Part shown: positions 1-34,708 of the stretch, piece by piece
How positions within the stretch are numbered: position 1 is the first letter of the stretch
Layout of the letters: each line of letters begins with the position of its first letter
NCBI GenBank assembly: GCA_002840405.1
Contig: PHAR01000003.1
Coordinates: forward strand, 251,946-315,945
Length of the DNA: 64,000 bases
Origin: Deltaproteobacteria bacterium HGW-Deltaproteobacteria-8
GTDB lineage: Bacteria; Desulfobacterota; Desulfovibrionia; Desulfovibrionales; Desulfovibrionaceae
Direction: 5' to 3'
Made by a program: the position numbers and the translations under genes
The notes under the pieces: generated by a model
What the model saw: the letters and a program-made list of their open reading frames with translations, nothing else
Databases searched by the model: none
What the model was told of the DNA's origin: nothing

Positions 1-249
1 CCGTTTTCCGAGCGGGCGGAGGGCATGCTGCGCCGCAGGGCTCATGTCTTCGCCTCGGCGGGGGAGATGGCCCGGGCCATCGCGGCGTATGGCCGCGAAC
101 CCCTGGCCCGGTTGCGCAGTCCGGAGTATCATGAGCACTACATCGCCCGTCCGGGCTCGGCCGAGCGCCTGCTCCGGGAGGCGGCCGCGCTGGTCCGGGG
201 CGCACACCGCGAGCCAACCGAAGGAGAGGTCCCATGCAGCAGCGCGTGA
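1..249 (+). CDS. C-terminal fragment of an unidentified protein
   Basis: The reading frame is open from the first base and ends in TGA at 247-249, so this is the last 82 residues of a gene that begins outside the window. The fragment is rich in Arg, Ala and Glu and ends in an amphipathic helical stretch, with no motif that identifies a family. It overlaps the start of the aldolase gene by 16 bases, which suggests co-transcription with the glycan island downstream. Given that context it could be the end of a glycan-assembly protein, but this is only a guess. Confidence 0.6.
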   Translation, partial: PFSERAEGMLRRRAHVFASAGEMARAIAAYGREPLARLRSPEYHEHYIARPGSAERLLREAAALVRGAHREPTEGEVPCSSA

Positions 250-1298
250 ACATCCTGGACACCACCCTGCGTGACGGCAGTTATGCCGTGGACTTCCAGT
301 TCACGACGCAGGACACGGCGGTCATCGCCAAGGCCCTGGAGGACGTGGGCGTGGACATCGTGGAGATCGGCCACGGAGTGGGCCTTGGAGCCTCGCGCAA
401 GGGCTTCGGCGAAGCTGCGGCCACGGACGCGGAATATCTCCAGGCTGCGGGCGAGGTGTTGAGCCGGGCCCAGTACGGCATGTTCTGCATCCCGGGCGTG
501 GCCACGCTGGAGGATGTGGACATGGCGGCCGACCTGGGCGCGCGGTTCATCCGCATCGGCACCAACGTCACGGAAGTGCGGGCCTCCGAGCCGTTCATCG
601 CCCGGGCCAAGCGGCATGGGCTCTTCGTCTCGGCCAATTACATGAAGTCCTACGCCCTGCCGCCGGAGCAGTTCGCCCGGCACGCCCGGGAAAGCCAGGC
701 CTATGGCGCGGACGTTTTGTGCGTCGTCGATTCGGCCGGGGGCATGTTGGCCTCGGACCTTGTGAGCTATTTCAAGGCCGTGCGCGCGGTGTGCGACATC
801 GACCTGGGCTTCCACGGGCACAACAACCTGGGCCTGGCCGTGGCGCATTCGCTGCTGGCCGTGGAGCTGGGCGCCACGGTGGTGGACTCCTCGCTGCAGG
901 GCCTGGGGCGCAGCTCCGGCAACGCCGCCACGGAGCTCGTGGTGGCGGGGCTCATGCGCATGGGAGTGGAGACCGGGGTGGACCTGCTGGGGGTCATGGA
1001 CGCCGGGGAGATCCTGATCAAGCCTCTGCTGCACGCAAGCGGCCTGTCCTCCCTGGACATGGTCATGGGCTACGCCCAGTTCCACTCCAGCTACATGGGG
1101 CTGGTGCGCCAGCACGCGGGCAGGCAGCGGGTGGACCCCCGGAGGCTCATCATCGAACTGTGCAAGCGGGACAAGGTCAACGCTCCGGAGGCGCTGGTGA
1201 AGGAGGTCGCTGCGGGCATCGAGAAGAAGATGGACCAGCCCCTGACCAGCCGCTTCAACTTCGCGGCCTACCACGGCAACGAGCAGGAGGAGCGATGA
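234..1298 (+). CDS. HMGL/DRE-TIM-type aldolase (4-hydroxy-2-oxovalerate aldolase-like)
   Basis: A 354-residue protein of the HMG-CoA lyase-like aldolase superfamily, which makes or breaks C-C bonds next to a 2-oxo acid using a divalent metal in a TIM barrel. The N-terminus carries the hallmark LDTTLRDGSY (residues about 8-17), whose Arg and Asp bind substrate and metal. The second signature GFHGHNNLGLA, about residue 193, supplies the metal-binding His pair. It lacks the long C-terminal domain of isopropylmalate synthase and is closest in size to 4-hydroxy-2-oxovalerate aldolases. No acylating aldehyde dehydrogenase lies nearby, so a catabolic meta-cleavage role is unlikely. Sitting before an acyl ligase and a carrier protein, it probably builds or trims the carbon skeleton of a glycan substituent. 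The substrate is unknown. Confidence 0.85.
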   Translation: MQQRVNILDTTLRDGSYAVDFQFTTQDTAVIAKALEDVGVDIVEIGHGVGLGASRKGFGEAAATDAEYLQAAGEVLSRAQYGMFCIPGVATLEDVDMAADLGARFIRIGTNVTEVRASEPFIARAKRHGLFVSANYMKSYALPPEQFARHARESQAYGADVLCVVDSAGGMLASDLVSYFKAVRAVCDIDLGFHGHNNLGLAVAHSLLAVELGATVVDSSLQGLGRSSGNAATELVVAGLMRMGVETGVDLLGVMDAGEILIKPLLHASGLSSLDMVMGYAQFHSSYMGLVRQHAGRQRVDPRRLIIELCKRDKVNAPEALVKEVAAGIEKKMDQPLTSRFNFAAYHGNEQEER

Positions 1299-1328
1299 AC
1301 CGGGCGCAGGCCGAAAACGGAGGCCCCA

Positions 1329-2888
1329 GTGGCTGAATTGGACCTGGCGGCGGCCAGCCATGCAACGCGGCCTTTCCTGGTGGATGCCCGGACCGGGCGC
1401 ACGCTGAGCTACGCGGACTTTCGCCTCGTGGTGCTTGATCTGGCCGCGGGATTGGCCCGCGCCGGGGCGGCGCGCGGCGCGCACATCGCCCTGCTGCTGC
1501 CCAACGGGCCGGAGCTGGCCTGCGCATATTTTGCCTGCCTGCGCCTGGGGGCCGTGGCCGTGCCTGTGAACGCCAAGTACCCCCCGGCGGACCGGGAGTA
1601 CATCCTTGGCGTGTCGCGGGCGGTGCTGGCGGTTGTTCCCACTGCGGGCGCGGAAGCGGCCGGGGACGCCGAAAGGGCCGGACTGCCGGTCTTCCGGGTC
1701 GGCACGGACCCGGCCGGGGAGCGGCCGGACTGGGTGCTCCCGGACAGCGCACCCGTTGTCCCGGCGGACGCACCCCCGCCCAACCAGACTCCGGACGCCC
1801 CGTTTGCGCTCACGTTCACCTCGGGAACCACGGGCCGCCCCAAGGGCATTTTTCATAGCGCGGCCACCCTGCTTGGCAACGCCAGAGCCTTCAACCAGGC
1901 CCTGTCCATCACTCCGGAGCACCGCTTTCTGCACGCCATGCCCATGGCCTACATGGCTGGCCTGCTCAACTGCCTGCTTTGTCCTTTCGCCGCCGGGGCC
2001 AGCGTGGTGGTGGACCGCGAGTTCGACGCGCGCATGGCCTTTTCTTTCTGGCAGGGGGTGCTGCGCCATGGGGTGAACTGCTTGTGGTCGGCCCCTTCGG
2101 CGCTGGGCATGGTCCTGGCCCTGGACCGGGGCGAGGACGGCCGACGCACGGCCCTGCGCTTCATCGCCGCCTGCACGGCCAGTCTGCCCGGGCAGCTCCG
2201 GGCAGAATTTGAGGAGCGTTACGGCGTACCCGTGCTGCCCAGCTTCGGCATGTCGGAGACGCTCATCAACACGGTGGACTCGCTTGAGCGCCGCTGCCCG
2301 GACGGGGCCACGGGCTACCCGCTGCCCGGCATGGAGCTGCGGGTGGTCGGGCCAGACGGATTGGCCGGGGCGGCCTTGGCGCCGGGCGCGGAGGGTGAGC
2401 TGCTGGTGCGCTCCCCCAGCCTGATGCTGGGCTATCTTGACCCGGACACGGGCGGCCTGCAGCCCGCGCCGCCCTCCACGCCGCCAGGCGGCTGGTTCCC
2501 CACCGGGGACATGGGCGTGCTGCTGCCCGGCGGCTCCCTGCGCATCACGGACCGCAAAAAAGATCTCATTGTGCGCGGCGGCATGAACGTGAGCCCGAAA
2601 AAGGTGGAGGTGGCGTTGGAAGGCCACGCCGGAGTGCTGGAGGCCGCTGTGGTGGGCCTGCCGGACCCTGCCCGCGGCGAGCGCGTGGCGGCGGCGGTGC
2701 GCCTCCGGCCGGGTCCGGGGACGGCCTCCGGAGAAGCGCTCCGGGGAGAGCTGCTCGCCCGCTGCCGGGAGCTGCTGGAGCCAGCGGCCAGGCCGGAGGC
2801 GCTGGTCGTCCTGGAGGATTTTCCGCGTGGGAGCACCGGCAAAGTAGACAAGCGGGCTCTGCGCGCGCTGCTGGAGGAAACATGCTGA
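1329..2888 (+). CDS. AMP-dependent acyl-CoA/acyl-ACP synthetase (ANL family)
   Basis: A 519-residue adenylate-forming ligase that activates a carboxylic acid as acyl-AMP and passes it to a thiol. The P-loop-like FTSGTTGRPKG lies at about 163-173. It also has FGMSETL, the GWFPTGDMG/ITDRKKDLI region at the hinge, and the C-terminal STGKVDK containing the catalytic lysine. The start is GTG at 1329, chosen because GGAGG lies five bases upstream. It overlaps the cyclase gene by 7 bases and is two genes away from a stand-alone acyl carrier protein, so the natural acceptor may be that carrier rather than CoA. This is inferred from position. Substrate specificity cannot be read from the sequence. Confidence 0.9.
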   Translation: MAELDLAAASHATRPFLVDARTGRTLSYADFRLVVLDLAAGLARAGAARGAHIALLLPNGPELACAYFACLRLGAVAVPVNAKYPPADREYILGVSRAVLAVVPTAGAEAAGDAERAGLPVFRVGTDPAGERPDWVLPDSAPVVPADAPPPNQTPDAPFALTFTSGTTGRPKGIFHSAATLLGNARAFNQALSITPEHRFLHAMPMAYMAGLLNCLLCPFAAGASVVVDREFDARMAFSFWQGVLRHGVNCLWSAPSALGMVLALDRGEDGRRTALRFIAACTASLPGQLRAEFEERYGVPVLPSFGMSETLINTVDSLERRCPDGATGYPLPGMELRVVGPDGLAGAALAPGAEGELLVRSPSLMLGYLDPDTGGLQPAPPSTPPGGWFPTGDMGVLLPGGSLRITDRKKDLIVRGGMNVSPKKVEVALEGHAGVLEAAVVGLPDPARGERVAAAVRLRPGPGTASGEALRGELLARCRELLEPAARPEALVVLEDFPRGSTGKVDKRALRALLEETC

Positions 2889-3580
2889 AACTTGTGGACC
2901 TCACCCTGCCCATCGAAGAGGGCATGCTGACTTTTCAACGCCCCTGGCACGTGCGCGTGCAGGTGCGGCAACTTGCGGAACTGGCGGTGCAGGGGCGCGA
3001 AACCCGCTCCATCACCCTGGGCAGCCACACCGGCACCCACGTGGATGCGCCCCGGCATTTTATGCCGGGTGGGGCCGGCGTGGACCAACTGCCCCTGGAC
3101 GCCCTGATCGGGCGGGCGCGTCTGCTCGATCTCCATGGCCTTGCGCCGCTCACGCCCATCACCACGGAGCTGCTTGCCGCGGCCCTGGGCGGGGCGGTCC
3201 CCGCGCGGCTGGTGCTGCGCTTCGACTGGGACAGGTTCTGGGGCGCGGAGGACTATTACCGGGGGCATCCGTACCTGACCGAGGAGGCCGCCCGCTGGCT
3301 TGTGCAGGGCGGTTTGCGCCTTTTGGGGCTGGACGCGCCCATGCCCGACAACCCCGAGCCCGCAGAGGGCGCGCCGGACTCGCCCATTCACAAGATCCTT
3401 CTCGGGTCCGGGGTCATCCTGCTGGAGTACTTGTGCAATCTTGGCGCGCTGCGCTCCCCGGAGATCACCCTGGTGGCCCTGCCCCTGCGGGTGAGCGGGG
3501 CCGATGGCGCCCCGACGCGTTGCGTGGCCTATGACGGTTTGGCTGATTTCACCGACGAAGCGCAGGAGGAGCGTTCATGA
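2882..3580 (+). CDS. Cyclase-family metal hydrolase (kynurenine formamidase-like fold)
   Basis: A 232-residue member of the Cyclase family (PF04199), metal-dependent enzymes that include bacterial arylformamidases and some polyketide cyclases. The signature SHTGTHVDAPRHF spans residues 48-60, with His49, His53 and Asp55 the expected metal ligands. The rest of the protein shows typical family features, including a late LLGLDAPMPD segment. It starts inside the end of the ligase gene and its stop overlaps the carrier-protein start as ATGA. No tryptophan-catabolism genes are nearby, so kynurenine degradation is improbable. Cyclisation or hydrolysis of a carrier-bound or sugar-bound intermediate fits the context better, but is inference. 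Confidence 0.85.
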   Translation: MLKLVDLTLPIEEGMLTFQRPWHVRVQVRQLAELAVQGRETRSITLGSHTGTHVDAPRHFMPGGAGVDQLPLDALIGRARLLDLHGLAPLTPITTELLAAALGGAVPARLVLRFDWDRFWGAEDYYRGHPYLTEEAARWLVQGGLRLLGLDAPMPDNPEPAEGAPDSPIHKILLGSGVILLEYLCNLGALRSPEITLVALPLRVSGADGAPTRCVAYDGLADFTDEAQEERS

Positions 3581-3840
3581 GCGAAGAGATACAAAGCTTT
3601 GTGCTGGCCAGCCTTGAGGCCGCGCGGCCTCTGCCGGGGGCCACGCAGGCCGACAAGTTGGCTTACGACTACCTGGACCAGGGGCATATCGATTCCTTCA
3701 GCATCATGCAGCTGATCCTGACGCTGGAGGAGCGCTTCGGCATCCGCTTCGGCCAGGAGGACCTGGAATCCGACGAAATGCGCACAGTGGGCGGGCTGGC
3801 CGCCATCGTGGAGCGGCTGTCGGAAGGCGGCGCGCGCTGA
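3577..3840 (+). CDS. Stand-alone acyl carrier protein
   Basis: An 87-residue acidic helical protein with the phosphopantetheine-attachment motif GHIDSFSIMQL; Ser40 is the expected attachment site, with the usual preceding Asp. Size and layout match acyl and peptidyl carrier proteins. It overlaps the cyclase (ATGA) and shares one base with the next start (TGATG), so translation is tightly coupled. It is clearly not the housekeeping fatty-acid AcpP by context: no fab genes flank it. Dedicated carrier proteins occur in flagellin-glycosylation loci of Campylobacter and Pseudomonas. Here it probably carries the acid activated by the ligase at 1329-2888. Confidence 0.9.
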   Translation: MSEEIQSFVLASLEAARPLPGATQADKLAYDYLDQGHIDSFSIMQLILTLEERFGIRFGQEDLESDEMRTVGGLAAIVERLSEGGAR

Positions 3841-5000
3841 TGTTCATTCCGCAGGACGTGGTGGCGCTGTTTGCAGAGCAGGGCGCGGCCATCCTCTACA
3901 ACGTGTTCAGCCGGACGTCTCTTGGGCTCTCGCCCGAGGCCTTGGCGCAGGCCCTGGCCCTGGGAGCCGGGCGCGAGGCCGGGGCCGGGCCGTTCACGGT
4001 GTGGGAAACCGGCTGGTTCTCCAACGAGCAGGGCCTGCTGGCGGACCCGACGCGTCTGCTGCGCAGCCCGGAGCAGTGGCCCGCGCCGCTGACCCTTTCC
4101 GGTGCGGAGTTGGCGGGGTTGCTGGTCAAGCGCTGCCTGCTGGCGGAGGACCGCGAGACCTACCTGGCCCGCTTCGCGCCGAAGAAGGGGCTGCTTGATT
4201 TCGCGCATTTCGGAAACTTCCACCAGCAGCTCGGCCAGCACCTCATGACCGCGTTGCGCACGGATCCCGGGCGCTGGTGGTGCGAACAGAAGTTTTTGCC
4301 CGGCCTGACGGGCATCCGGGACAACCTGTACAAGTTCGTGCAGGAGGCGTTTCTGGCGGAGCATTTTGCCGGCAGCCTGGGCCAGGGGACGCGTGTTCTC
4401 GACGTCGGCTGCGGGGTGGGCTATTTCGCCCGCATGATGGCCGCAGCCGGGGCTGAGGTCGTGGGCGTGGACCCCAACGCGCAGTATGTGGAGCGCGCGG
4501 CGCAGGGCGGGGCGGGCTCGGTCCGCTTCGTGCGCGAGGCCGTGGGGGCGGAGCCCATGACCGCCGTGCCCGACGGCTGGGCGGACGTCGTGTTCATGAG
4601 CGACGCGCTGCTGTTCTATTTCATCCCGGAGGCGCCGGGACAGCGGGCCGACTCCGGCGTGCTGCTCCGGGACATCCACAGGCTGCTGCGGCCCGGGGGC
4701 CGGTTCTGGAGCCTTGAACCGCACAGCGCCTTCTTTCTGTCCCCGCGCCTGGGCGACGAGGACCGGCCGTTCACCGTGCTCACGGAATACCACCACAAGC
4801 GCTTCGGCATCACCCCGAACCTGACCGATCTCATCGGCACGGTGCTGGGGCACGGCTTCGCGTTGACGGCCCTGCGGGAACTCTACCCCGCCGCCTCCGG
4901 CCAGGCCGCCGCCGCCAGCCTCGACGCCGATGCGCGCGGCCACCACTTTGCCGACGAGTTCCCGCAGTGGCACCTGCTCGAATTCACCCGGCAGGCGTGA
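3840..5000 (+). CDS. Class I SAM-dependent methyltransferase
   Basis: A 386-residue protein with a central Rossmann methyltransferase domain. Motif I, VLDVGCGVGYFARMM, lies at about residue 185, followed by VVGVDPN, whose acidic residue binds the SAM ribose. A post-motif segment reads LLRPGGRFWSLEP. The first 180 residues match no family I can name. The start shares its A with the TGA of the carrier-protein gene. The position between the carrier protein and an N-acyltransferase-like fusion suggests methylation of the same intermediate. Whether it modifies O, N or C is not visible. Confidence 0.8.
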   Translation: MFIPQDVVALFAEQGAAILYNVFSRTSLGLSPEALAQALALGAGREAGAGPFTVWETGWFSNEQGLLADPTRLLRSPEQWPAPLTLSGAELAGLLVKRCLLAEDRETYLARFAPKKGLLDFAHFGNFHQQLGQHLMTALRTDPGRWWCEQKFLPGLTGIRDNLYKFVQEAFLAEHFAGSLGQGTRVLDVGCGVGYFARMMAAAGAEVVGVDPNAQYVERAAQGGAGSVRFVREAVGAEPMTAVPDGWADVVFMSDALLFYFIPEAPGQRADSGVLLRDIHRLLRPGGRFWSLEPHSAFFLSPRLGDEDRPFTVLTEYHHKRFGITPNLTDLIGTVLGHGFALTALRELYPAASGQAAAASLDADARGHHFADEFPQWHLLEFTRQA

Positions 5001-5010
5001 GGGGAAGGCC

Positions 5011-6876
5011 ATGCCGAACTGCGACTATACGCCGAAAGAGATGGTGCAGGCCCTGCGGAACGTGGGGCTGGAGCGCGGCGACACCGCCATCTTCCACACC
5101 GGTCTTGGCTTCTTCGGCCTGCCCGGCGGGGTGAGCGGGCAGGAGGGGCTGAACCGCCTGTTCCTGGACTGCGTGCGGGAGGTGCTGGGGCCGGAGGGCA
5201 CCATGCTGGTGCCTACGTATACCTACAGCCTGTGCCGGGGCGAGGTCTTCGACGTGCGCGCGACCCCGGCGGGCATAGGCCCCTTCCCGGAGTATTTCCG
5301 TACCCAGGAGGGCGTGCTGCGCTCGCAGGAGCCGATCCTTTCCGTCTGCGGGCAGGGGCCGCAGGCCCGGGAGCTTTTCGCGGACCTGCCCCCCACCACG
5401 TACGGGCCGGGCTGCCTGTACCAGCGCCTGGTTGAACGCAAGGCCAAGGTCTGCACCGCCGGGCTGGGGCTCAACTGGGCCACGTTCCTGCACCACATCG
5501 AGGAGATGTCCCAGGTTCCCTACCGCTACAAGAAGCTTTTCGTGGGCGAGATGACCGACGGCGCCGGGCGCACGTCCACCGTGCGCTGGACCTACTACGT
5601 GCGCCTCTGGGCGGCCAATGCCAACGTGGACGCGCGGGCGCTGGTGGCCATGCTGCACGCCGACGGCGTGTGCGCCAGGGCCGGGCTTGGGCGCGGCGGG
5701 CTGTGCTGCATCGGGGCGGACCGTTACTTTGAATACGCCTCGACCAGGATGCGCGAGAACCCGTGGCTTGCGGCCCAGGGTCCGTCCCGCGAGCCGGTGG
5801 AGCTGGAGCGCGAGCGCGTCCCCAGGCAGAGCTTCGCCCTGCCGGAGGCCACGGGTTCGCTTTCGGCCCTTGCCGAGGCCTTGACCCCCCTGCCGCGGGA
5901 TCCGGTCTCTGATGCGCTGGACGCTTCGCTGGAGCTTTTGGCCGCGCACGAGTCTCTGCTGCTTCACCGCTTCCGGACGGGAACCGTAGTGGCTGGAGAA
6001 CTGGTACCCGAGCGCTGGAGCTGCCGCGAAGCCACGCTCCAGACCCTGGCCGGAGAGCCCGTGTTTTCCCTGCACGATTCGCCTTTGCACGTGGTTTCCT
6101 GCTCCCACGGCTTCACGGGCGAGGTGGACCGGGCGGAGTTGCTGGCCCACCTGCACCTACACCCCCGGCTTGAGCACGCGGTGCCCCATGTGCGCAACGA
6201 CTTCCGGCGGCAATGGGGTTTGTGCTGCAGCGCAAAGCAGCGCGCCCGGCTTAGCGATGCACGCTACCTGGTGCGCATCGACGCGGGCTTCTCCTGCGGG
6301 GAGATGCTCGTGGGCGAGCTGGCCCGGCCGGGGAACGGCGCGGCGGAGATCGTGCTCTGCGCGCATCTTGGCGCGCCCGGACAGTTCAACGAGGGGCTCT
6401 CCGGCGCGCTGGCCGGGCTGGAGGCCCTGCGCGGGCTGTTGCCGCAGGGGCCGGGCGAGGTGGGCTGCCGGCTGCTGCTGGTTCCCGGTCCTCTTGGGCT
6501 GCGCGCCTGGCTGGAGCAGGCTGGCCCGCACCCCGGCAGGGTGATCCTTCTGCTCAACCACCTGGCTCTGCCGGGCCCCTTGCGCTGGTCCGGCCCAGTG
6601 GCGGGCTCCTCCCTCCGGGAGACCCTGCACCGGGCCCTGCCGGGCGTGACGGCGGCGCAGACAGAGCCTGCGGTGCCCTGGCAGGACGCCTGGCGGATCG
6701 GCGCCGGACCGGACGGGGTCCTGCCCGCGTTGACGCGCGCCCTGCCTGGGGAGCACCCCCGGCATCCGTACCCGGAGCATCGTTCCAGCGCGGACTGCGT
6801 GGAGGCCTTTGGCCTGGAAAGCCTGAGCGGCGCGGCGCAGGCCCTGGCCACAGCCCTGAAGGCCTGCGGGTGCTGA
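5011..6876 (+). CDS. AAC(3)-like N-acetyltransferase fused to a degenerate DUF4910 aminopeptidase-like domain
   Basis: A 621-residue two-part protein. Residues 1-265 resemble the aminoglycoside 3-N-acetyltransferase family, CoA-dependent N-acetylation enzymes: HTGLGFFGLPGG at 29-40, GTMLVPTYTY, GPFPEYFR and TFLHHIEE at 158-165. The usual RSxHP is RSQEP here. Residues about 310-615 align with the DUF4910 protein at 8182-9516: QWGLC matches RWGFC, the metal-site block reads CAHLGAPGQFNEGLSG where the other has SSYLCHPAMANNELSG, and HPYPEHRSSAD matches YREYHTSLDN. The CHP histidine is replaced, so the second half may be non-catalytic. ATG 5011 is preferred over the longer frame that overlaps the previous gene. 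It sits 10 bases after the methyltransferase and 1 base before the next gene. Confidence 0.75.
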   Translation: MPNCDYTPKEMVQALRNVGLERGDTAIFHTGLGFFGLPGGVSGQEGLNRLFLDCVREVLGPEGTMLVPTYTYSLCRGEVFDVRATPAGIGPFPEYFRTQEGVLRSQEPILSVCGQGPQARELFADLPPTTYGPGCLYQRLVERKAKVCTAGLGLNWATFLHHIEEMSQVPYRYKKLFVGEMTDGAGRTSTVRWTYYVRLWAANANVDARALVAMLHADGVCARAGLGRGGLCCIGADRYFEYASTRMRENPWLAAQGPSREPVELERERVPRQSFALPEATGSLSALAEALTPLPRDPVSDALDASLELLAAHESLLLHRFRTGTVVAGELVPERWSCREATLQTLAGEPVFSLHDSPLHVVSCSHGFTGEVDRAELLAHLHLHPRLEHAVPHVRNDFRRQWGLCCSAKQRARLSDARYLVRIDAGFSCGEMLVGELARPGNGAAEIVLCAHLGAPGQFNEGLSGALAGLEALRGLLPQGPGEVGCRLLLVPGPLGLRAWLEQAGPHPGRVILLLNHLALPGPLRWSGPVAGSSLRETLHRALPGVTAAQTEPAVPWQDAWRIGAGPDGVLPALTRALPGEHPRHPYPEHRSSADCVEAFGLESLSGAAQALATALKACGC

Positions 6877-6877
6877 C

Positions 6878-8089
6878 ATGAGCCATGCGCACCACACGGC
6901 GGCAGGAGACGGCGGCGCGTACCGGATGCGGCAGCGGGACAGGTCTTGCGAACTGTGCGGCAACGACAGGCTTGAGCAGGTGTTCCGCCACGGCTTCCAG
7001 AGCCGCACGCGCAACGCGCTGTACCAGTGGGACGTGCGCGTGGTCCTTTGCCCGCGTTGCGGCTTCGCCTTCGCCTCCCCCGCGCCGGAGGACCAGGACC
7101 TGCTCGCCTACTATGCCGATTCTTTCGCCGCGAGCCCGCTTCAGCAGCGGGACTACTCCCTGGAGAAACGCCTGGCCCTTATCGACCGCTTCCGCGAGCC
7201 GGGCCGGGCGGGCGTCTGTGTGGAGGCTGGGGGCAACGCGGCCGGAGACTTCGCCGAGGGTTTACGGCAGCGCTTCCGACAGGTGCTGAACGCGGAGCCC
7301 AACCAGAGTTGCGCGGGTTCGCACAGCACCCTGGGGGAGCTTGGGGACGGGTGCGCCGACATGGTGGCGGCCTACTTTGTCCTGGAGCACGCGGCCCGGC
7401 CTCTGGAATTTCTGCGGGACTGCGCCCGGATCCTGCGCGTCGGCGGGCTGTGCGTCCTCGAGGTGCCGGACCTCCATGCCTATCCGAAGAGCCCTGTGTC
7501 GCTGCTGCTTTACGAGCACCTGAACCACTTCTCCCCGCGCACCCTGGACCGTCTGTGCCGCGCGGCCGGTCTTGAGGCCGTGCACATGGGCGCACGGGAA
7601 TGCAGCCGAGGCTACGGTTTTGCCGCCATGTTGCGCAAGTCCGGCCGGGTACTCCCCGCGTACCGGGACGGCGACCCGGACGATGCGCGGGAGGCTGCCA
7701 GGGCGGCGGAGTCTCTGCGGCAGGGCGTGGAGGCGCTCCACGGCTTTTTCGCGGAGGCGGAGGCGGTCCGGGAGCGGCTGGACAGCCATGCGGCCGCAGG
7801 CGGCCGGGCGGTCATCTGGGGGGCCAACGACGTCTGCCTGCATCTGCTGGCGGGCCGGGCGCCAGCCCAGGGAGTGGAAGTGGTGGACAGCAACCCGGCC
7901 AAGGCCGACTTTCTGCGCAGTCGCCCCGTGCTTCTGCCCGAACAGGCCGCCGGGCACATCCGGGCGAGCACCTTGTTTGTCGTCTGCACCCAGCTGCATG
8001 CCGGGGCGATAACGCGCACCCTGGAGGGTCTGCTCGGTCGGCCGGTGGAGGACGTTCTCGTGCTGGACCTGCCCGATGCGGCGGGATGA
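6878..8089 (+). CDS. Sugar C-methyltransferase-like SAM protein with N-terminal zinc motif
   Basis: A 403-residue protein with the three-part layout of NDP-sugar C-methyltransferases. The N-terminus has paired CELC and CPRC cysteines (about residues 25-65) as a zinc-binding module, then a Rossmann methyltransferase core (GVCVEAGGNAAG, ILRVGGLCVLEVPDLH). The C-terminal Rossmann-like domain carries GRAVIWGANDVCLHLL. Related enzymes methylate a keto-sugar carbon, but family members in glycan clusters also act on other substrates. The start follows the previous stop after one base. Motif I is less canonical than in the methyltransferase at 3840-5000 (E-A-G-G-N rather than D-x-G-x-G), so activity should be treated as probable, not certain. 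Confidence 0.8.
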   Translation: MSHAHHTAAGDGGAYRMRQRDRSCELCGNDRLEQVFRHGFQSRTRNALYQWDVRVVLCPRCGFAFASPAPEDQDLLAYYADSFAASPLQQRDYSLEKRLALIDRFREPGRAGVCVEAGGNAAGDFAEGLRQRFRQVLNAEPNQSCAGSHSTLGELGDGCADMVAAYFVLEHAARPLEFLRDCARILRVGGLCVLEVPDLHAYPKSPVSLLLYEHLNHFSPRTLDRLCRAAGLEAVHMGARECSRGYGFAAMLRKSGRVLPAYRDGDPDDAREAARAAESLRQGVEALHGFFAEAEAVRERLDSHAAAGGRAVIWGANDVCLHLLAGRAPAQGVEVVDSNPAKADFLRSRPVLLPEQAAGHIRASTLFVVCTQLHAGAITRTLEGLLGRPVEDVLVLDLPDAAG

Positions 8090-8181
8090 GTGCGGCCTTG
8101 CCGCGCGCCGGGGCGACTGGACAAGCCGTGCTCCCCTGTGGCACGCACCGTGCATAAACCCAGAGTATGCAGAAGGAATTC

Positions 8182-9516
8182 ATGAGCGATAAAGTCTTGG
8201 ATCCGCTCGCCGAGCGCATGGAGAAGACCTTCGACAGGCTGTGGCCCTTGCACCGTAGCCTGGCCGGGCCGGGCTTCGTGGCCTCGCTCGACGTGCTGGG
8301 CGGGATAATGCCCCACGAACGGCTTCTTTTCCCAACCGGAACGCAGGTTCTGGACTGGACCGTTCCATCGGAATGGCACCCGCGGGAGGCCTATTTCCTG
8401 GCGCCCGACGGACGGCGCTGCGCAGACATCCGCGAAAACACGCTGCACCTGCTCGGGTACTCCGCGCCCTTCCGGGGGCGGGTTTCCCTCGCGGAGCTGC
8501 GGGAGCACCTGCACACCCGGCCCGATCTGCCGGAGGCCGTACCCTACGCGACCTCGTACTATTCGCCGCGCTGGGGCTTCTGCATCCCGCACGCGCTGCT
8601 CGAAACCCTGCCCGAGGGCGACTACGAGGTGGTCATCGACACCGAACTGGTCCCCGGGCACGTCACCGTGGCCGAGGCCGTGCTGCCGGGGGAGGGCGCG
8701 GAGGAGATCCTGCTCTCCTCCTACCTGTGCCATCCGGCCATGGCCAACAATGAGCTTTCCGGCCCGCTGGTGCTCAGCTACCTGTATGAGCAGGTGCGCC
8801 GCCTGCCCCGAAGGCGTTACACCTACCGCTTTGTGCTCCTGCCGGAGACCATCGGCTCCATCTGCCTGCTTTCGCTGCGCGGGGAGCACCTGGTGCGGCA
8901 TTTGCGCGCCGGGCTGATGCTCACCTGCCTGGGCGACGCCGGGGCGTTCACCTACAAGCGCTCGCGCCGGGGCGGAGCCCTGGTGGACAGGGCGGCCGAG
9001 GCGGTTCTGGCCGCGCGCGGTCCGCACCGCCTTCTGGCCTTCGATCCGGCCGACGGCAGCGACGAGCGGCAGTATTGCTCGCCAGGGTTCAACCTGCCCG
9101 TGGGCACGCTCTCGCGCAGCATCTATGGCCAGTACCGGGAGTACCACACCTCCCTGGACAACAAGGCGTTCATGGATTTCGGGAGCATGGCGCAGTCCGT
9201 GGCCGTGGCGCTGGAGGTGCTGCAGGCCTTGGAGGCGAACCATGCGCCGGTCAATTTGTCCCCCCGTGGCGAGCCGCAGCTCGGGAAGCGGAACCTGTAT
9301 CCGACCCTGAGCGCCGAGACCAGCCTGGCACAGGCTCAGCAGGCCGTGATGTGGCTGCTGAACTACGGGGATGGGGAGCACGACCTGCTGGAGATCTCCC
9401 GGTTGTCGGGACTTTCCCCGGTGCTCCTGGGTCATATGTCCGAAAAGCTGCAGGCGGCCGGCCTGGTGCGCGCGGACCAAGCACGGTCAAATGCAAAGGA
9501 GAATCCGGCATGCTGA
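8182..9516 (+). CDS. DUF4910 aminopeptidase-like protein with C-terminal winged helix (COG4310 type)
   Basis: A protein of 444 residues. ATG 8182 is preferred over ATG 8167 because an AGAAGGA ribosome site lies just before it. The family (DUF2172/DUF4910 plus winged helix) has an M28-peptidase-like fold and is usually annotated as polysaccharide-biosynthesis-associated, with unproven chemistry. Visible hallmarks are CHPAMANNELSG, LLPETIGSICLL, SDERQYCSPGFNLPVG and YREYHTSLDN, the usual metal and active-site blocks. The last 65 residues form a small helical domain with a LLEISRLSGLS helix-turn-helix-like element. It overlaps the next gene by 7 bases. The neighbouring fusion protein carries a decayed copy of the same domain, hinting at a catalytic and non-catalytic pair. 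Confidence 0.85.
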   Translation: MSDKVLDPLAERMEKTFDRLWPLHRSLAGPGFVASLDVLGGIMPHERLLFPTGTQVLDWTVPSEWHPREAYFLAPDGRRCADIRENTLHLLGYSAPFRGRVSLAELREHLHTRPDLPEAVPYATSYYSPRWGFCIPHALLETLPEGDYEVVIDTELVPGHVTVAEAVLPGEGAEEILLSSYLCHPAMANNELSGPLVLSYLYEQVRRLPRRRYTYRFVLLPETIGSICLLSLRGEHLVRHLRAGLMLTCLGDAGAFTYKRSRRGGALVDRAAEAVLAARGPHRLLAFDPADGSDERQYCSPGFNLPVGTLSRSIYGQYREYHTSLDNKAFMDFGSMAQSVAVALEVLQALEANHAPVNLSPRGEPQLGKRNLYPTLSAETSLAQAQQAVMWLLNYGDGEHDLLEISRLSGLSPVLLGHMSEKLQAAGLVRADQARSNAKENPAC

Positions 9517-10949
9517 AGCACCCGCGCATTCTGTTGATCAACGTGTGCCTGCGCTACGACACCCCGCTTTCAGCCCTGCCCGTGGGGCTGGCGTGCATCG
9601 CCACGGCCCTGCGCGACGCGGGGTACCTGCCCGAGATCCTGGACATCGACCTGCACCGCCTGAGCGATGACGCCGTGCGCGAGCACCTGGAGCGCAACCG
9701 CTACGACATCATCGGCCTGGGCAACATCATCTCCGGCTACCGCCACACCAAGCGCTTGTGCCAACTGGCCAAGGCGGTGCAGCCGGACGCGCTGCTCGTG
9801 GTGGGCAACACCGTGGCCTCCATTCCAGAGCAGCTGCTGGGCTGGAACCCAGAGGTCGATGTCGCGGTTTTGGGCGAGGGCGACCGGACCATCGTCGAGC
9901 TTGCGCGGGCCTGGGCTGGCGGCACGAGCCTGGAGGCCGTGGCTGGCATCGCCCTGCGGGTGGACGGCAAGGTGGTGCGCACGCCGGTCCGCGAGTGTGT
10001 TCCACGGCTGGAGGACGTTCCGTTTCCGGACTTCACGCTGTTCGAGCTGGAGAAGTATCTGGAGTTCTCCTGGAAATTCGTGCCGGAACCGCATCCCATA
10101 AAGCGGGAGTTGATGCTCAGCCTGCCGGTGAACACGGCGCGCGGCTGCCCCTTTGACTGCACGTTCTGCTACCACGCCTTCAAGGCTTGCCCGTACCGCT
10201 ACTACTCCTTCGAAAGTGCCGTGCAATACTTCCAGGAGATGCAGCGGCGCTACAAGGTGCAGTACCTCAATTTTTGGGACGAGCTCACCCTGGTCTCCAG
10301 GCCCAGGGCCGTGGAGTTGTGCGATGCGCTGGAGCGCAACGACTGCAAGGCCTACTGGCCTGTCGGTCCGCGCGGCAACCTGTTCAAGGCGCAGGACCTC
10401 GACCTGCTGCGGCGCTGTGCGAGCCTGGGCGCCACGACCATCGGCGGCGCCCTGGAGTCCGGCGCGCCCGAGATTCTGGCGGCCATGAATAAGAAGATCT
10501 CTCCCGAGGAGTTCATCGAGCAGATGCAGACCGGATATCGCGCCGGGCTGGTGCCGAACACCTCGGTGGTGTTCGGCTACCCCCAGGAGACGAAGGAGAC
10601 CATCGCGCAGACGCTGCTGGTCTGTGAACGCGCGGGGGTCTACCCGTCCGCCGGGTATGTGCTGCCCCTGCCGAACACCCGCATCTACGAGCACTGCCGC
10701 AAGCGCGGGCTCATCACCGACGAGGAGGCCTACCTGTTGCGCATCGCGGACAGGCAGGACCTGCACGTGAACCTGACCGCGATGCCCGACGAGGAACTGG
10801 TCAGCACGGTCACCGAGGGGCTCATCCGCCTGAAGGACAAGCTGGGCATCCCCCTGTCGGACAAGGACGTCATCAAGACAACGTATTACCGCGCGGCCCG
10901 GCGCAACGCAGACGGGAGCGGTGTGGGCGCAAGACAGGACGGCGTATGA
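9510..10949 (+). CDS. B12-binding-type radical SAM protein
   Basis: A 479-residue enzyme starting at ATG 9510, inside the end of the DUF4910 gene with AAAGGAG upstream; the longer open frame to 9075 is a shadow. The N-terminal 130 residues have the alpha/beta pattern of a cobalamin-binding domain (PVGLACIATALRDAGY, VDVAVLGEGD). The radical SAM cluster motif is CPFDCTFC in ARGCPFDCTFCYHAF, about residue 215. Members with this layout often methylate unactivated carbons or remodel rings. In this cluster it could act on the sugar or acyl precursor. The stop overlaps the next start as ATGA. Confidence 0.9.
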   Translation: MLKHPRILLINVCLRYDTPLSALPVGLACIATALRDAGYLPEILDIDLHRLSDDAVREHLERNRYDIIGLGNIISGYRHTKRLCQLAKAVQPDALLVVGNTVASIPEQLLGWNPEVDVAVLGEGDRTIVELARAWAGGTSLEAVAGIALRVDGKVVRTPVRECVPRLEDVPFPDFTLFELEKYLEFSWKFVPEPHPIKRELMLSLPVNTARGCPFDCTFCYHAFKACPYRYYSFESAVQYFQEMQRRYKVQYLNFWDELTLVSRPRAVELCDALERNDCKAYWPVGPRGNLFKAQDLDLLRRCASLGATTIGGALESGAPEILAAMNKKISPEEFIEQMQTGYRAGLVPNTSVVFGYPQETKETIAQTLLVCERAGVYPSAGYVLPLPNTRIYEHCRKRGLITDEEAYLLRIADRQDLHVNLTAMPDEELVSTVTEGLIRLKDKLGIPLSDKDVIKTTYYRAARRNADGSGVGARQDGV

Positions 10950-11707
10950 TCGCGGCACTTCTCATGGGGCGCAAGGGCAGCGTGGGCCTGCCGGGCAAGA
11001 ACACCATGCCGGTGCTCGGGCGGCCTCTGGCCGAGTATCCGTTCCTGGCGGCGCGGCACGCCCGCTGCGTGGACGCCATCTACATCAGCACCGACGACGA
11101 ACGGCTGGCGCAGATCGGCCGCAAGGTCGGAGCGCGGGTCATCGACCGGCCGCCGCACCTGGCCACCAAAGAGGCTCTGGGCGAGCACGTGTACCAGCAC
11201 GGCCTTTCGGTCATCCGCCAGGACGCGGCCCAGGCCGGGCAGGAGGTCGAGCTCCTGGCCCTGCTCATGTGCAATGCGGCCACGGTGGTTGCCGCGCAGA
11301 TCGACGAGGCCGCAGGCATCTTGCGCCGCGACCCCGGGCTGGACTCCGTGGTGACGGTCTCGTGCCTGAACATGTGGTCGCCGCTGCGCGCCCGCAAGCT
11401 GGACGGGGAGGGACTGCTGCAGCCCTTCGTGCCCTTCGAGGCCTTCGGCGACCCGCAGACCCTGAACTGCGATCGCGACAGCCAGGGGGACGTGTGGTTC
11501 GCGGACATGGGCCTGTCCATGATCCGCCCCGCCAACCTGGACCTGCTGGAGCAGGGCCTGCTGCCCCAGAAGTGGATGGGGCGTCGCATCGCGCCGCTCA
11601 AGCAGTGGGGCGGCTGCGACGTGGACTACGCCTGGCAGGTGCCCGGCGTGGAGCACTGGCTGCGAGAGCACGGTTTCTCGGAGACGGGGACACCCTATGA
11701 CGATTGA
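10946..11707 (+). CDS. Cytidylyltransferase (CMP-sugar synthetase-like, NeuA family)
   Basis: A 253-residue nucleotidyltransferase of the family that activates sialic-acid-like sugars as CMP derivatives. The N-terminus MIAALLMGRKGSVGLPGKN carries the nucleotide-binding loop with R and K in a slightly divergent form of the usual RxGSKGLPGKN. TDDERLAQI follows as the second strand and DVDYAWQ near the end matches the family's Asp-containing C-terminal motif. No sialic-acid synthase (NeuB) is present in the window, so the sugar being activated is unknown. It is coupled to both neighbours (ATGA upstream, 11-base overlap downstream). Confidence 0.8.
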   Translation: MIAALLMGRKGSVGLPGKNTMPVLGRPLAEYPFLAARHARCVDAIYISTDDERLAQIGRKVGARVIDRPPHLATKEALGEHVYQHGLSVIRQDAAQAGQEVELLALLMCNAATVVAAQIDEAAGILRRDPGLDSVVTVSCLNMWSPLRARKLDGEGLLQPFVPFEAFGDPQTLNCDRDSQGDVWFADMGLSMIRPANLDLLEQGLLPQKWMGRRIAPLKQWGGCDVDYAWQVPGVEHWLREHGFSETGTPYDD

Positions 11708-12659
11708 GCCGAGGGCCAACAGCAACTTTACCGTCCTTGGGGGAACGAGCCCCCACGAGCAAGGCGACGCGCGCTACCAGGCCTACCGGGCCGACTGGTT
11801 CGGGCGGCCGCGCCGTTTTGAGGCCGGGGACTTTCCGCTGCATCTGGACCTGGAGGCCACAAGCCGCTGCAACCTGCGCTGCGTGTTCTGCGACAAGCTG
11901 CCCGTTTTGCCCCGGGAAAAGATCGGGGACATGGACTTCGCCCTGTACGAGCGCATCCTGGCCGAGGCCGAAGAGCACGGCCTGTGCGGGCTCAAGCTGA
12001 GCTACCGCGGCGAGCCGCTGCTGCACCCGCGCATCGTGGACATGGTGCGCCTGGCCAAGCGGCGCGGCGTGCAGGACGTGTATTTCAACACCAACGGCAT
12101 GCTGCTGACCGAGGACCTGGCCGCCGCCCTCATGGACGCCGGGCTGGACCGCATCTCCATCTCGATGGAGGGCACGGACCCGCTGGCCTTTGAGTCCGCG
12201 CGGCGCGGGGCCAGCTTCGAGCGCATCAAGGCCAACGTGGCCGGGCTGTTGGCGCTGCGCCGCCGCCGCGGGCTCGGCATTCCGCACGTGCGCCTGCAGA
12301 CCGTGGTTCTGCCGGGCATCGACCTGGAGGCCTATGCGGCCTACTGGGGGCCCCTGAGCGACGAGACCGCAGCGGTGGACTACAAGGACGTCCGGGTGGA
12401 GCAGCGGGAAACTCCCGGCTGGGCCTGCCCGCAGCCCTGGCAGCGCGTGACTGTGGAGTGGGACGGCACGGTGCATCCGTGCAACAATGACGACCAGCAG
12501 CGCGCTGTGCTGGGCAACGCGGCCCGGACGAGCCTCGCCGAATGCTGGCGGGGGCCGGCGGCCTGCGCCCTGCGGGAGCTGCACCGGGCCGGAAATGCGC
12601 ACGTGTCCCCGGCCTGCGCCGTGTGCCCGTGGCGCGCGGCCCAGGCGGACAAGGCATGA
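11697..12659 (+). CDS. Radical SAM protein with SPASM-type C-terminus
   Basis: A 320-residue enzyme. CNLRCVFC at about residue 58 supplies the three cysteines of the SAM-bound 4Fe-4S cluster. LSYRGEPLLHP corresponds to the GGEP-type SAM-binding strand. The C-terminus has CPQPW, then TVHPCNNDDQ and SPACAVCPW, a set of Cys able to hold auxiliary clusters. This arrangement resembles SPASM proteins found in glycan clusters and dehydrogenase-type enzymes. The reaction cannot be deduced. It overlaps the cytidylyltransferase gene by 11 bases. Confidence 0.85.
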   Translation: MTIEPRANSNFTVLGGTSPHEQGDARYQAYRADWFGRPRRFEAGDFPLHLDLEATSRCNLRCVFCDKLPVLPREKIGDMDFALYERILAEAEEHGLCGLKLSYRGEPLLHPRIVDMVRLAKRRGVQDVYFNTNGMLLTEDLAAALMDAGLDRISISMEGTDPLAFESARRGASFERIKANVAGLLALRRRRGLGIPHVRLQTVVLPGIDLEAYAAYWGPLSDETAAVDYKDVRVEQRETPGWACPQPWQRVTVEWDGTVHPCNNDDQQRAVLGNAARTSLAECWRGPAACALRELHRAGNAHVSPACAVCPWRAAQADKA

Positions 12660-12691
12660 GCGCGGGCTTTGCGCAAAGCCAGGAGGCGGAT

Positions 12692-13426
12692 ATGCGGCAC
12701 GACCCTCCCGTAGTCCTCATCACCGGCGCCAGCAGCGCCATAGGCGCGGCCGTGGCCCGCAGATACGCAGCCGATGGCTGGGAGCTGCTGCTCTGGCACC
12801 GTTCCGGCGGGCAGCTGGTCCGGGACCTGGAGGCGGAGCTTGAGGCCCTGGGCGCGCGGCGCTCATGGACCCAGGTCGACTTCAAGGACGCCCCGGCAGT
12901 GGAGCGGGCCGTGGAGCCTTTGCGCCAGGCACGGGTGGACGCCCTGGTGAACAACGCTGGCGGCTACGAGGCGCTGCAGCATTTCAGCACCCTGGGCCAT
13001 GCCGAGGTCATGGAGTCCCTGGCCGTGAATTTCACCGCGCCGTTTCTGCTGGCCTCGGCGGTGTTCGAGGGCATGGCCGGGCGCGGCGCCGGGCGCATGG
13101 TCAACATCAGCTCCGTGGCGGCGAAGTATGGCGGCTCGGCCCAGTCCATGCACTACGGCTGCGCCAAGCGCGCGCTGGAGGGCATCACGCGGACCTTGGC
13201 CCGCGAGGGGGCTTCCAGCGGCGTGCTGGTCAACACGGTGCGGCCCGGCGTCATCGACACCGGGTTCCACACCCGCCTGGGGCGGGACATGGCGGTGCGG
13301 ACGGAGCTCATCCCCCTGGGCCGCATGGGCACGCCGGAGGAGGTCGCCGAGGTGGTGCATTTTCTGGGCAGCTTCCGCAACACGTATGTCACGGGGCAGA
13401 CCATCGCCGTTTCCGGCGGGGAGTAG
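12692..13426 (+). CDS. Short-chain dehydrogenase/reductase
   Basis: A 244-residue NAD(P)-dependent oxidoreductase. ATG 12692 is chosen because AGGAGG lies five bases ahead; an in-frame ATG at 12656 overlaps the previous gene and lacks such a site. It has VLITGASSAIGAAVA for the cofactor, VNNAGG, a Ser in NISSVAAKYG, and the catalytic YGCAK (Tyr-x-x-x-Lys). It ends with the usual VTGQTIAVSGGE. The sequence is close to 3-oxoacyl-ACP reductases, which would suit reduction of a carrier-bound intermediate, but sugar-modifying SDRs look alike. Confidence 0.88.
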   Translation: MRHDPPVVLITGASSAIGAAVARRYAADGWELLLWHRSGGQLVRDLEAELEALGARRSWTQVDFKDAPAVERAVEPLRQARVDALVNNAGGYEALQHFSTLGHAEVMESLAVNFTAPFLLASAVFEGMAGRGAGRMVNISSVAAKYGGSAQSMHYGCAKRALEGITRTLAREGASSGVLVNTVRPGVIDTGFHTRLGRDMAVRTELIPLGRMGTPEEVAEVVHFLGSFRNTYVTGQTIAVSGGE

Positions 13427-13504
13427 CCGTGCGCGGGGACTTTTTTCGGACGGGATTCGGCAACAGTGCAACGCGCCCGCAGGGCGCTGGACGCAGGTGA
13501 GGGC

Positions 13505-14392
13505 ATGAAAGGCAAGGCAGTTGTCGTCGGCGGTTCGGGGTTCATGGGCAGCCATCTGGCGGACGAATTGACCGCGCGCGGCTACGACACGGTGATCGTG
13601 GACCGGGTTCCCTCGCCCTGGCTGCAGCCCGGGCAGGAGATGGTCGTGGCGGACACCGACGACCTTGAGGCCCTCAAGGCGGCCTTCGCTGGCGCGCGCT
13701 TTGTCTACCACCTGGCAGGCATCGCGGACATCGAAGCCACGGCGAACCGTCCCCTGGAGGTCGTGCGGGCCAACATCATGGGCAGCGCCAACGCCATCGA
13801 GGCGAGCCTGGCCGCAGGGGTCGAGCGTTTCATCTTCGCCTCCACGGTCTACGTCTACAGCCAGCAGGGGTCGTTCTACCGCGTGAGCAAGCAGGCCACG
13901 GAGCTGCTGCTGGAGAACTACCACAAGGAATTCGGGCTGGCCTACACGATCCTGCGTTACGGCTCCATCTACGGTCCGCGCAGCCAGTCCTGGAACGGCA
14001 TGCGCCGCTACGTCAGCCAGGCGGTGAAGACCGGCGTGCTGCTCTACCCCGGCACAGGCGAGGAGCGGCGGGAATATGTGCACGTGAAGGACGCCGCGCG
14101 TCTCAGCGTGGACATCCTCGCGCCGGAGTACGCCAACGCCTGCTACATCCTGACCGGGACCCAGGTGCTGAGTTCCCGCGATCTGACGAACCTCATCCGC
14201 GAAATACTGGGCGGCCGGGTGGACGTGCAATTCGACCCCGCAAACCGCGCCCCGGAACACTACAGCCTGACGCCCTACCGCTACACCCCGAAGGAGGGCC
14301 GGAAGATCGTGCTGACCACGTTCTACGACATCGGCCAGGGGGTGCTCGAACTCATCGAGGAGGCGATCCGGGATGCCGGGCCGGAGGACTGA
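13505..14392 (+). CDS. NAD-dependent epimerase/dehydratase (extended SDR)
   Basis: A 295-residue nucleotide-sugar-type enzyme. VVVGGSGFMGSHLADEL binds NAD near the N-terminus, FIFASTVYVYS holds the active-site Ser/Thr, and FYRVSKQ is the catalytic Tyr-x-x-x-Lys. ATG 13505 is preferred over the upstream in-frame codon because of the nearby GGTGAGGG. The protein lacks the features that would make it a dTDP-glucose dehydratase or UDP-galactose epimerase by name, so only the class is assigned. It follows the SDR with a 78-base gap and closes the first biochemical block of the island. Confidence 0.85.
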   Translation: MKGKAVVVGGSGFMGSHLADELTARGYDTVIVDRVPSPWLQPGQEMVVADTDDLEALKAAFAGARFVYHLAGIADIEATANRPLEVVRANIMGSANAIEASLAAGVERFIFASTVYVYSQQGSFYRVSKQATELLLENYHKEFGLAYTILRYGSIYGPRSQSWNGMRRYVSQAVKTGVLLYPGTGEERREYVHVKDAARLSVDILAPEYANACYILTGTQVLSSRDLTNLIREILGGRVDVQFDPANRAPEHYSLTPYRYTPKEGRKIVLTTFYDIGQGVLELIEEAIRDAGPED

Positions 14393-14446
14393 GGCGGTCC
14401 TGCGCGCCGCTGGCCCAGGGGCCGGAGGCCGGGGGCGTCGCCGGGT

Positions 14447-34627: not shown

Positions 34628-34708
34628 CTAACATAATGAGAGGTACAATTCGTGGGGGCAGGTCAATTCCCTTTTGGGCGGGGAATACGTTGCTGCAAAG
34701 GGGTTGAG

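Follow-up and report, generated by a model that had tools for sequence, protein, structure and literature searches.

Introduction

Mass spectrometry has revealed unusual N-acyl groups on sialic-acid-like sugars. We take Campylobacter jejuni to use an acyl carrier protein (ACP) and an FkbH-type glycerate loader, and its protein Cj1295 to be a member of the DUF4910 family. Cj1295 is needed for 5-(2,3-di-O-methylglyceroyl)amino-pseudaminic acid on flagellin (PMC3068675). For CA_C2186-2199 of Clostridium acetobutylicum, a modified cell-surface sugar was proposed in 2014, perhaps made via transacylation (PMC4000134), and the sfmABCDE genes of Shewanella oneidensis put an O-methylated, nitrogen-free moiety of C9H16O7 to C11H20O7 on a flagellin nonulosonic acid (NulO) (PMC3765264). 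The pathway to such unusual groups is stated as not known, each time for the authors' own case, in PMC3068675 and PMC3765264. Here, we describe a locus in Deltaproteobacteria bacterium HGW-Deltaproteobacteria-8, in which an HMGL-type aldolase gene is followed by genes for an adenosine monophosphate (AMP)-forming ligase, a cyclase, an ACP, an AAC(3)-like acyltransferase and a DUF4910 protein. It lies at the start of a 64,000-nucleotide stretch of contig PHAR01000003.1 (the window; G000:C2:251946-315945 in the 3.5 Mb genome, G000).

The genes from 234 to 9516 of the window, called module A, probably form a cassette for the N-acylation of NulO. The aldolase would build a hydroxy acid, which the ACP would carry until it is joined in amide linkage to an amino group of a NeuB-made NulO. 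A sequence-only reading of the window had seen a carrier-protein pathway within a glycan island, supplying an acyl group for a sugar activated with cytidine monophosphate (CMP); of its proposals this is the one best backed, by conserved neighbourhoods and by the Cj1295 precedent. We therefore class the cassette with a known kind of system, in which sialic-acid-like sugars are N-acylated through a carrier protein, the acid-building front end being the new part. It provides candidate enzymes for one pathway to the unusual N-acyl groups on these sugars, and a testable explanation for the DUF4910 proteins, labelled aminopeptidase-like, that occur in glycan islands. No description joining an aldolase of the HMGL/DmpG type with an ACP and with NulO or glycosylation genes was found among the openly licensed PMC full texts, the supplement of PMC4000134 falling outside that scope. 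The terms 'aldolase' and 'acyl carrier' are absent from the available text of PMC13317340 and PMC13130089.

Conservation of the aldolase cassette

The 13 complete genes between 234 and 14392 (Table 1) all lie on the + strand and have coding-type composition, with a third-position G+C typical of local genes. Intergenic gaps range from -11 to 30 bases through to the SPASM gene, the sole exception being the 92 bases 5' of the DUF4910 gene. Every gene named in the sequence-only reading is present in this close-packed run: Pfam confirms each family, and the third-position G+C fits real genes. A motif check found HTGTHVDAPRH in the cyclase, LHHIE in the AAC(3) part and the DSF serine site in the ACP.

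Among 297 genomes of the same class, 12 gave a match to the aldolase at E <= 1e-60, the source genome included. Nine of these, again counting the source genome, carry a family with the motif LRDGSY (the GSY family). The catabolic type, LRDG(M/S)H, is found in the remaining three genomes and as an additional copy in G155. Among the matches listed, 12 further genomes belong to the same genus, and none of them carries the aldolase at this threshold. The nearest copy (70%) comes from a different genus (locus L020), where the open frames adjoining the aldolase look, as read from sequence, like transposase genes. A scan of a contig database with the single aldolase sequence gave no confirmed relative. 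An alignment-based scan gave at least 579, of which the best 80 loci were kept, a sample biased to close relatives; these 80 come from many bacterial phyla and some archaeal metagenome-assembled genomes. The counted set of 88 loci is the 89 obtained minus L102, a duplicate of L021.

Partners were counted with hidden Markov models (HMMs) trained on the same 89 loci that were later counted. Over the 88 aldolase loci, the AMP ligase was found in 46, the cyclase in 43, the ACP in 37, NeuB in 32, AAC(3) and a VOC protein in 29 each, and DUF4910 in 28; at least four of the six partners (ligase, VOC, cyclase, ACP, AAC(3), DUF4910) occur together in 31. All 26 control regions were taken from the sample of the window's class, and six had been picked because they hold a catabolic aldolase or NeuB. 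In these, cyclase, ACP, AAC(3), DUF4910 and VOC were each found in none and the ligase in three; NeuB was found in two, both picked for containing it. The 43 loci that bear the cyclase also carry ligase (40), ACP (35), AAC(3) (28), VOC (27), DUF4910 (26) and NeuB (21). Many contigs are short, which makes absences uncertain, and the loci are related, so Fisher values overstate their independence. No Maf gene was found near the cassette in any of the 88 loci or 26 controls with a narrow HMM made from the window's PF01973 protein, the home stretch ending before that protein, so that the result is no proof of absence.

The commonest gene order is aldolase, AMP ligase, VOC, cyclase, ACP, AAC(3), DUF4910, as in loci of Pelagibius litoralis, Rhizobium altiplani, Grimontia hollisae and Phaeovulum vinaykumarii. 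A scan of one member places the VOC protein in the glyoxalase superfamily. Its gene belongs to the cassette in many phyla (29 loci, among them L038:12527-13273) and often sits between the AMP ligase and the cyclase. It is not in the window, and was hence out of reach of the earlier gene list. Ligase and cyclase are fused in a single frame in L024, and the AAC(3) and DUF4910 genes are fused in the window and in L020. The signature of an LRDGSY aldolase beside cyclase, ACP, AAC(3) and DUF4910 finds the cassette in many phyla. In addition, the aldolases of L024 (8763-10607) and L027 (9249-11099) are extended at the C terminus by about 250 residues, which in L024 match no Pfam family.

A NeuB pathway upstream of the window

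The sequence-only reading had noted that no NeuB-type synthase is present. This holds within the 64-kb window, where none was found, and fails just outside it: the genome has NeuB domains at three places, one of which (G000:C2:245237-245938) is on the same strand, about 6 kb 5' of the window start. The premise that the aldolase must substitute for NeuB therefore falls.

The island in fact begins before the window, in the 19.5 kb upstream of it (L004). Here, genes on the window's strand encode PseF-like and SpsF-like cytidylyltransferases, a Gfo/Idh dehydrogenase, a PseC/LegC-like aminotransferase, a dehydratase/epimerase, a NeuB with a SAF domain and a WbuX N-acetyl sugar amidotransferase. They are accompanied by asparagine-synthase-like and acyltransferase-like proteins, names that were read from the sequence alone. 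WbuX scores above its NCBIfam cut-off (270.1 vs 203.2 bits), and the NCBIfam models for the upstream NeuB, PseC and PseF score below their own.

The aldolase and its active site

The aldolase is modelled with a pLDDT of 94.7, and its best structural matches are the DmpG-type aldolases 4lrs and 1nvm, at a TM score of 0.74. Over the full chain the root-mean-square deviation from DmpG types is near 15, so the two domains are placed differently in the model. The sequence scores above the cut-offs of the NCBIfam subfamily model NF006049 (311.9 bits vs 229) and Pfam DmpG_comm (28 vs 27), and falls one bit short of that of the equivalog TIGR03217 (285.1 vs 286). Aligned with 1nvm, it keeps Arg13, Asp14, His194 and His196, which correspond to DmpG Arg17, Asp18, His200 and His202, residues that we take to be the pyruvate/metal site. 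DmpG His21, presumably the catalytic base, is replaced by Tyr17, and reciprocally DmpG Tyr291 by His284. Tyr17 is found in 89/89 and His284 in 90/90 family rows with a letter at that position (the window and L021 each counted twice), whereas four catabolic copies keep His and Tyr there. DmpG Leu88, which belongs to the C4 pocket, and Leu90 are replaced by Phe84 and Ile86, both invariant in an eight-row alignment.

A flagellar acid of Treponema denticola, reportedly a 2-methoxy-4,5,6-trihydroxyhexanoyl group, would fit an aldol of pyruvate and glyceraldehyde; a text search gave no match, and it serves as a lead only. Leu88 and Leu90 of DmpG were taken as residues 87 and 89 of BphI, an offset of one being assumed. 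In BphI, stereocontrol is lost when Tyr290 is changed, and the double mutants L87W/Y290F and L87N/Y290F show the inverted, 4R preference (PMC3962088). Given these data and the swap, an altered stereochemistry or an altered aldehyde is a reasonable prediction for the GSY enzymes, and the His/Tyr swap makes the aldolase a good case for examining what determines the stereochemistry of class II pyruvate aldolases.

In the aldolase tree, the GSY aldolases form a clade apart from the catabolic copies, with support of 100. The acetaldehyde dehydrogenase family PF09290 was found nowhere in G000, G191, G124 and G161, genomes that have this aldolase type only, and it adjoins the catabolic copy in the positive genomes G278, G241 and G155. 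In G198, where the catabolic copy lies at a contig end, no PF09290 was found.

Two routes of acid activation

An ATP-grasp protein of the L-amino-acid-ligase type occurs in 28 of the 39 loci that lack both AMP ligase and cyclase, against 1 of the 49 loci with either and 2 of the 26 controls. This split gives a Fisher p of 5e-13, for loci that are related, and the aldolase tree requires at least seven switches between the two activation routes. We read the AMP ligase and ATP-grasp routes as interchangeable ways of coupling a free carboxylic acid with an amine; an aldolase that makes this acid would fit that reading.

A broader reading can be put forward tentatively, at somewhat less than an even chance. 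The GSY aldolases would be a cross-domain family that makes acids for glycan N-acyl groups, probably with 4R stereochemistry or from a sugar-like aldehyde, and feeds two interchangeable amide routes, one through AMP ligase, ACP, AAC(3) and DUF4910 and the other through a single ATP-grasp enzyme. If true, this would be a general modular pathway to substituents of the 3-deoxy-aldonic-acid type on sialic-acid-like sugars, in bacteria and some archaea.

The DUF4910 proteins

In the window and in L020 alike, the DUF4910 half that is fused to AAC(3) has, as aligned, lost the motifs CHP, PET, SDE and YHT, and the stand-alone DUF4910 protein keeps all four. In the relative 3k9t, the zinc ligands are His189, Asp195 and His324, and the two peptidase residues are replaced (PMC4000134). 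Both zinc-ligand His residues are kept in the window's stand-alone protein. As to function, transacylation was suggested for the DUF4910 protein by Das et al. (PMC4000134), and cleavage of the C5 acetamido group by Hitchen et al. (PMC3068675). Deacylation is merely one option for the stand-alone protein.

Proposed pathway and alternatives

In the pathway proposed for module A, every chemical step, as well as the aldehyde, the product and the acceptor, is predicted from gene content. The aldolase would condense an aldehyde with pyruvate or a closely related 2-oxo acid to yield a 4-hydroxy-2-oxo acid. This may be reshaped by the cyclase, together with the VOC protein in many relatives, and then loaded onto the ACP by the AMP ligase. 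The carrier-bound acid may be methylated by one or both of the methyltransferases MT1 and MT2. Finally, the AAC(3)-like enzyme would transfer the acid as an amide to the amino group of the sugar made by the upstream NeuB pathway, where the stand-alone DUF4910 protein may help to free or exchange an amide already on the sugar. MT1 lies directly 3' of the ACP in 5 of the 88 loci; its structure was predicted with low confidence (pLDDT 72.9), and every one of the 50 best matches listed has a methyltransferase fold.

Several observations weigh against this reading. The residue corresponding to the catalytic His of DmpG is replaced, so aldolase activity is itself putative. The position of 3k9t Asp195 is Asn in 23 of 28 stand-alone DUF4910 rows, that of the window included, which makes a deacylase role doubtful. 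The window lacks the VOC gene that 27 of the 43 cyclase loci carry. For the two activation routes, an independent-pairs sign test is not significant (median p 0.25): among 8 well-supported pairs, about 3.4 go in the expected direction, none in the opposite one, and 4.6 show no difference. Lastly, the fetched stretch is devoid of NeuB in 22 of the 43 cyclase loci, and 9 of 14 control genomes contain a NeuB as well.

These two NeuB counts suggest that the acceptor may be another amino sugar, and they bear most directly on the chief alternative, in which the cassette N-acylates a non-NulO amino sugar of an O-antigen or capsule and the co-occurrence with NeuB is mere clustering of glycan genes. 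This is unlikely on balance, yet it is the alternative to be taken seriously. DegT (42) and epimerase (34) genes are as common as NeuB over the 88 loci, and a Capsule_synth gene immediately precedes the aldolase in L024 and lies one gene farther upstream in L027. Set against this is the presence of NeuB in about half of the cyclase loci and, among controls, only in regions picked for it. Of the 22 cyclase loci without a nearby NeuB, 18 were checked and 16 lie in genomes with NeuB above the Pfam cut-off (18 of 20 when two loci with a nearby NeuB are included). This co-occurrence at the genome level is weak support given the control genomes. Furthermore, the Cj1295 precedent concerns pseudaminic acid.

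Another alternative, advanced in the sequence-only reading, is that the aldolase stands in for NeuB: it would itself produce a nonulosonic-like acid, to be activated by the CMP-transferase. The absence of NeuB inside the window and the presence of aldolase and CMP-transferase in one close-packed run speak for it. It is nonetheless very improbable, as the same-strand NeuB upstream is accompanied by aminotransferase, dehydratase-like, SpsF-like and amidotransferase genes, and NeuB shares 32 of the 88 aldolase loci and 21 of the 43 cyclase loci. Such a route would also have no need of a ligase, ACP and AAC(3) set. Moreover, the CMP-transferase travels with a different group of genes. This group, module B (10946-17937), comprises the CMP-transferase, SPASM, short-chain dehydrogenase/reductase (SDR), epimerase, dehydrogenase and HAD genes. 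Relatives of the CMP-transferase elsewhere have no aldolase beside them and share their neighbourhood with one or more of five partners (SPASM, SDR, epimerase, 2-hydroxyacid dehydrogenase and HAD): all five in L147 and L149, all but the SDR in L148, SPASM and epimerase together with a DUF4910 gene in L150, and SDR, epimerase and SPASM fragments in L151. The SDR is the sole partner in L152 and L153, and a distant copy in L154 lies with a dehydrogenase. Conversely, the 88 aldolase loci contain the CMP-transferase in 16, the SDR in 10, SPASM in 8 and the B12-binding radical S-adenosylmethionine (SAM) enzyme in 4. Relatives of the latter occur in NeuB-containing clusters (L155, L156, L157).

As most of 10946-17937 recurs without the aldolase, and most of 234-9516 without 9510-14392, the block is not one unit. 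It is made of two or three modules: module A; module B, a CMP-sugar module of its own that is separable from the first; and, as an accessory, the B12 radical SAM enzyme. The single pathway that had been drawn from 234 to 14392 in the sequence-only reading is not supported, its half with the CMP-transferase, SPASM, SDR and epimerase belonging to an independently travelling module; conservation as a unit elsewhere holds for the first half only, the module A core occurring in many phyla. The 2-hydroxyacid dehydrogenase was considered as a core reductase and rejected, being found in 2 of the 88 loci, one of them the window's own.

That the product is a free natural product, like a siderophore or antibiotic, rather than a glycan substituent, is suggested by the resemblance of the carrier protein, ligase, cyclase and methyltransferases to natural-product genes. 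There is little to be said for it otherwise: no condensation, ketosynthase or thioesterase family is among the Pfam matches of the 13 genes of the block, the island is rich in sugar genes and glycosyltransferases and has a PF01973 protein, and the sugar genes DegT, epimerase and NeuB lie near many of the 88 loci. Scarcely credible is an ordinary 4-hydroxy-2-oxovalerate aldolase of aromatic breakdown, located here by chance, for which the NF006049, DmpG_comm and near-miss TIGR03217 scores would speak and against which stand the active-site exchanges, the distribution of PF09290 and the separate clade.

Features of the block and the surrounding island

Three starts in Table 1 were shifted to the nearest upstream ATG (B12 radical SAM enzyme, SDR and epimerase). 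For the DUF4910 gene, starts at 8167 and 8182 are both possible.

Table 1. Genes of modules A and B and the genes between and beside them (window coordinates).
Feature	Position	Strand	Basis
Class II pyruvate-aldolase-like enzyme, HMGL fold + DmpG_comm, 'GSY' family	234..1298	+	Pfam, alignment, predicted structure
AMP-forming acid ligase, proposed loader of the free acid onto the carrier	1329..2888	+	AMP-binding Pfam; TSGTTGRPKG motif
Cyclase family (PF04199), metal hydrolase-like, HxGTHxDxPxH motif	2882..3580	+	Pfam
Stand-alone acyl carrier protein	3577..3840	+	PF00550; DSF serine site
MT1, SAM methyltransferase with additional N-terminal part; proposed O-methylation of carrier-bound acyl group	3840..5000	+	
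AAC(3)-like N-acyltransferase (Antibiotic_NAT) fused to degenerate DUF2172/DUF4910 half; proposed amide-forming enzyme	5011..6876	+	
MT2, SAM methyltransferase, N-terminal CxxC..CxxC zinc-like motif	6878..8089	+	
Stand-alone DUF4910/DUF2172/HTH_47 protein, aminopeptidase-like, related to 3k9t	8182..9516	+	Pfam, alignment
B12-binding radical SAM enzyme, outside conserved aldolase cassette	9510..10949	+	Pfam, neighbourhoods
CMP-sugar-type cytidylyltransferase, PseF/NeuA-like; first gene of module B	10946..11707	+	Pfam
Radical SAM/SPASM protein, module B	11697..12659	+	Pfam
SDR oxidoreductase, FabG-like, module B	12692..13426	+	Pfam
NAD-dependent epimerase/dehydratase, module B	13505..14392	+	Pfam
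633-residue protein, matches no Pfam family above cut-off; relative in module B locus L150	14447..16348	+	
D-2-hydroxyacid dehydrogenase, module B; possible candidate reductant for the aldolase's 2-oxo acid	16335..17303	+	Pfam
HAD hydrolase, module B; start codon uncertain, open frame from 17197	17300..17937	+	Pfam

The block is flanked by two large proteins without a Pfam family, which may be glycosyltransferases: the 633-residue protein of Table 1 and, just upstream of the block, a 612-residue protein (L004:17957-19795) that matches no Pfam family above cut-off and no relative of solved structure (best E 0.031). The capsule-type proteins near the aldolase in L024 and L027 are not detectably related to these two.

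Further along the window, three radical SAM proteins follow in near succession (21262-22125, 22611-23504, which is just below the Pfam cut-off, and 23501-24706). At the end of the island lies an MptE-like protein of family PF01973 (28869-30824), a candidate transferase for NulO or flagellin; two further PF01973 proteins occur elsewhere in the genome, and the flagellin genes are on contigs other than that of the window. PF01973 is named MAF_flag10 in PMC4000134. A GDP-mannose dehydratase/epimerase pair (34652-36790) has a third-position G+C of 0.60-0.62, far below that of its neighbours, and was probably acquired. At 39007-41198, a gene of the deoxyhypusine-synthase type adjoins one of the peptidyl-arginine-deiminase type (PAD_porph), in a bacterium.

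Comparison with known systems

By enzyme family, the front end of the cassette resembles DmpG/BphI (1nvm, 4lrs, 8ih7), with which the aldolase shares the fold and the conserved Arg, Asp and HxH of the pyruvate/metal site. It differs in the exchange of His21 and Tyr291, the change of Leu88 to Phe, the glycan context and, in four genomes, the lack of a dehydrogenase partner.

Among glycan systems, the group II flagellar glycosylation islands of Aeromonas have an ACP, an AMP-dependent synthetase and an oxoacyl-ACP reductase beside the pse genes, but the term 'aldolase' is absent from the available text (PMC7874193). The genes of the dedicated sfmABCDE operon of S. oneidensis encode NeuB-type, thiamine pyrophosphate-enzyme, reductase, methyltransferase and ATP-grasp proteins; these are five genes without a carrier protein, the available text does not use 'aldolase', and the system is closer to the ATP-grasp variant of the aldolase family than to the window (PMC3765264). 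In C. acetobutylicum, CA_C2186-2199, around CA_C2195/3k9t, bring together a NeuB-type spsE, spsF, a glyoxylase and DUF4910, along with a Maf-type protein, an aminosugar N-acetyltransferase and an ACP. Here, the ligase is of the ATP-grasp and not the AMP type, and 'aldolase' is absent from the main text as available, supplementary tables aside (PMC4000134). The window's island has a DUF4910 protein, a nucleotidyltransferase, an epimerase, an N-acetyltransferase and a methylase, as in the neighbourhood described by Das et al.

Of the systems described so far, the one that makes the di-O-methylglyceroyl pseudaminic acid of C. jejuni comes closest. As far as the available text of that paper goes, it names neither an aldolase nor an AMP ligase nor a cyclase, and it does not use the term 'acyl carrier' (PMC3068675). 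The likeness lies in the aminopeptidase-like Cj1295 and an N-acetyltransferase gene (Cj1296/7) within a NulO locus, and in the product, an O-methylated hydroxy-acid amide on NulO, the same kind that is proposed here (PMC3068675). The locus of the window matches a Cj1295-type system in its DUF4910/DUF2172 protein, in its AAC(3)-like enzyme with an ACP, and in the NeuB that lies about 6 kb upstream.

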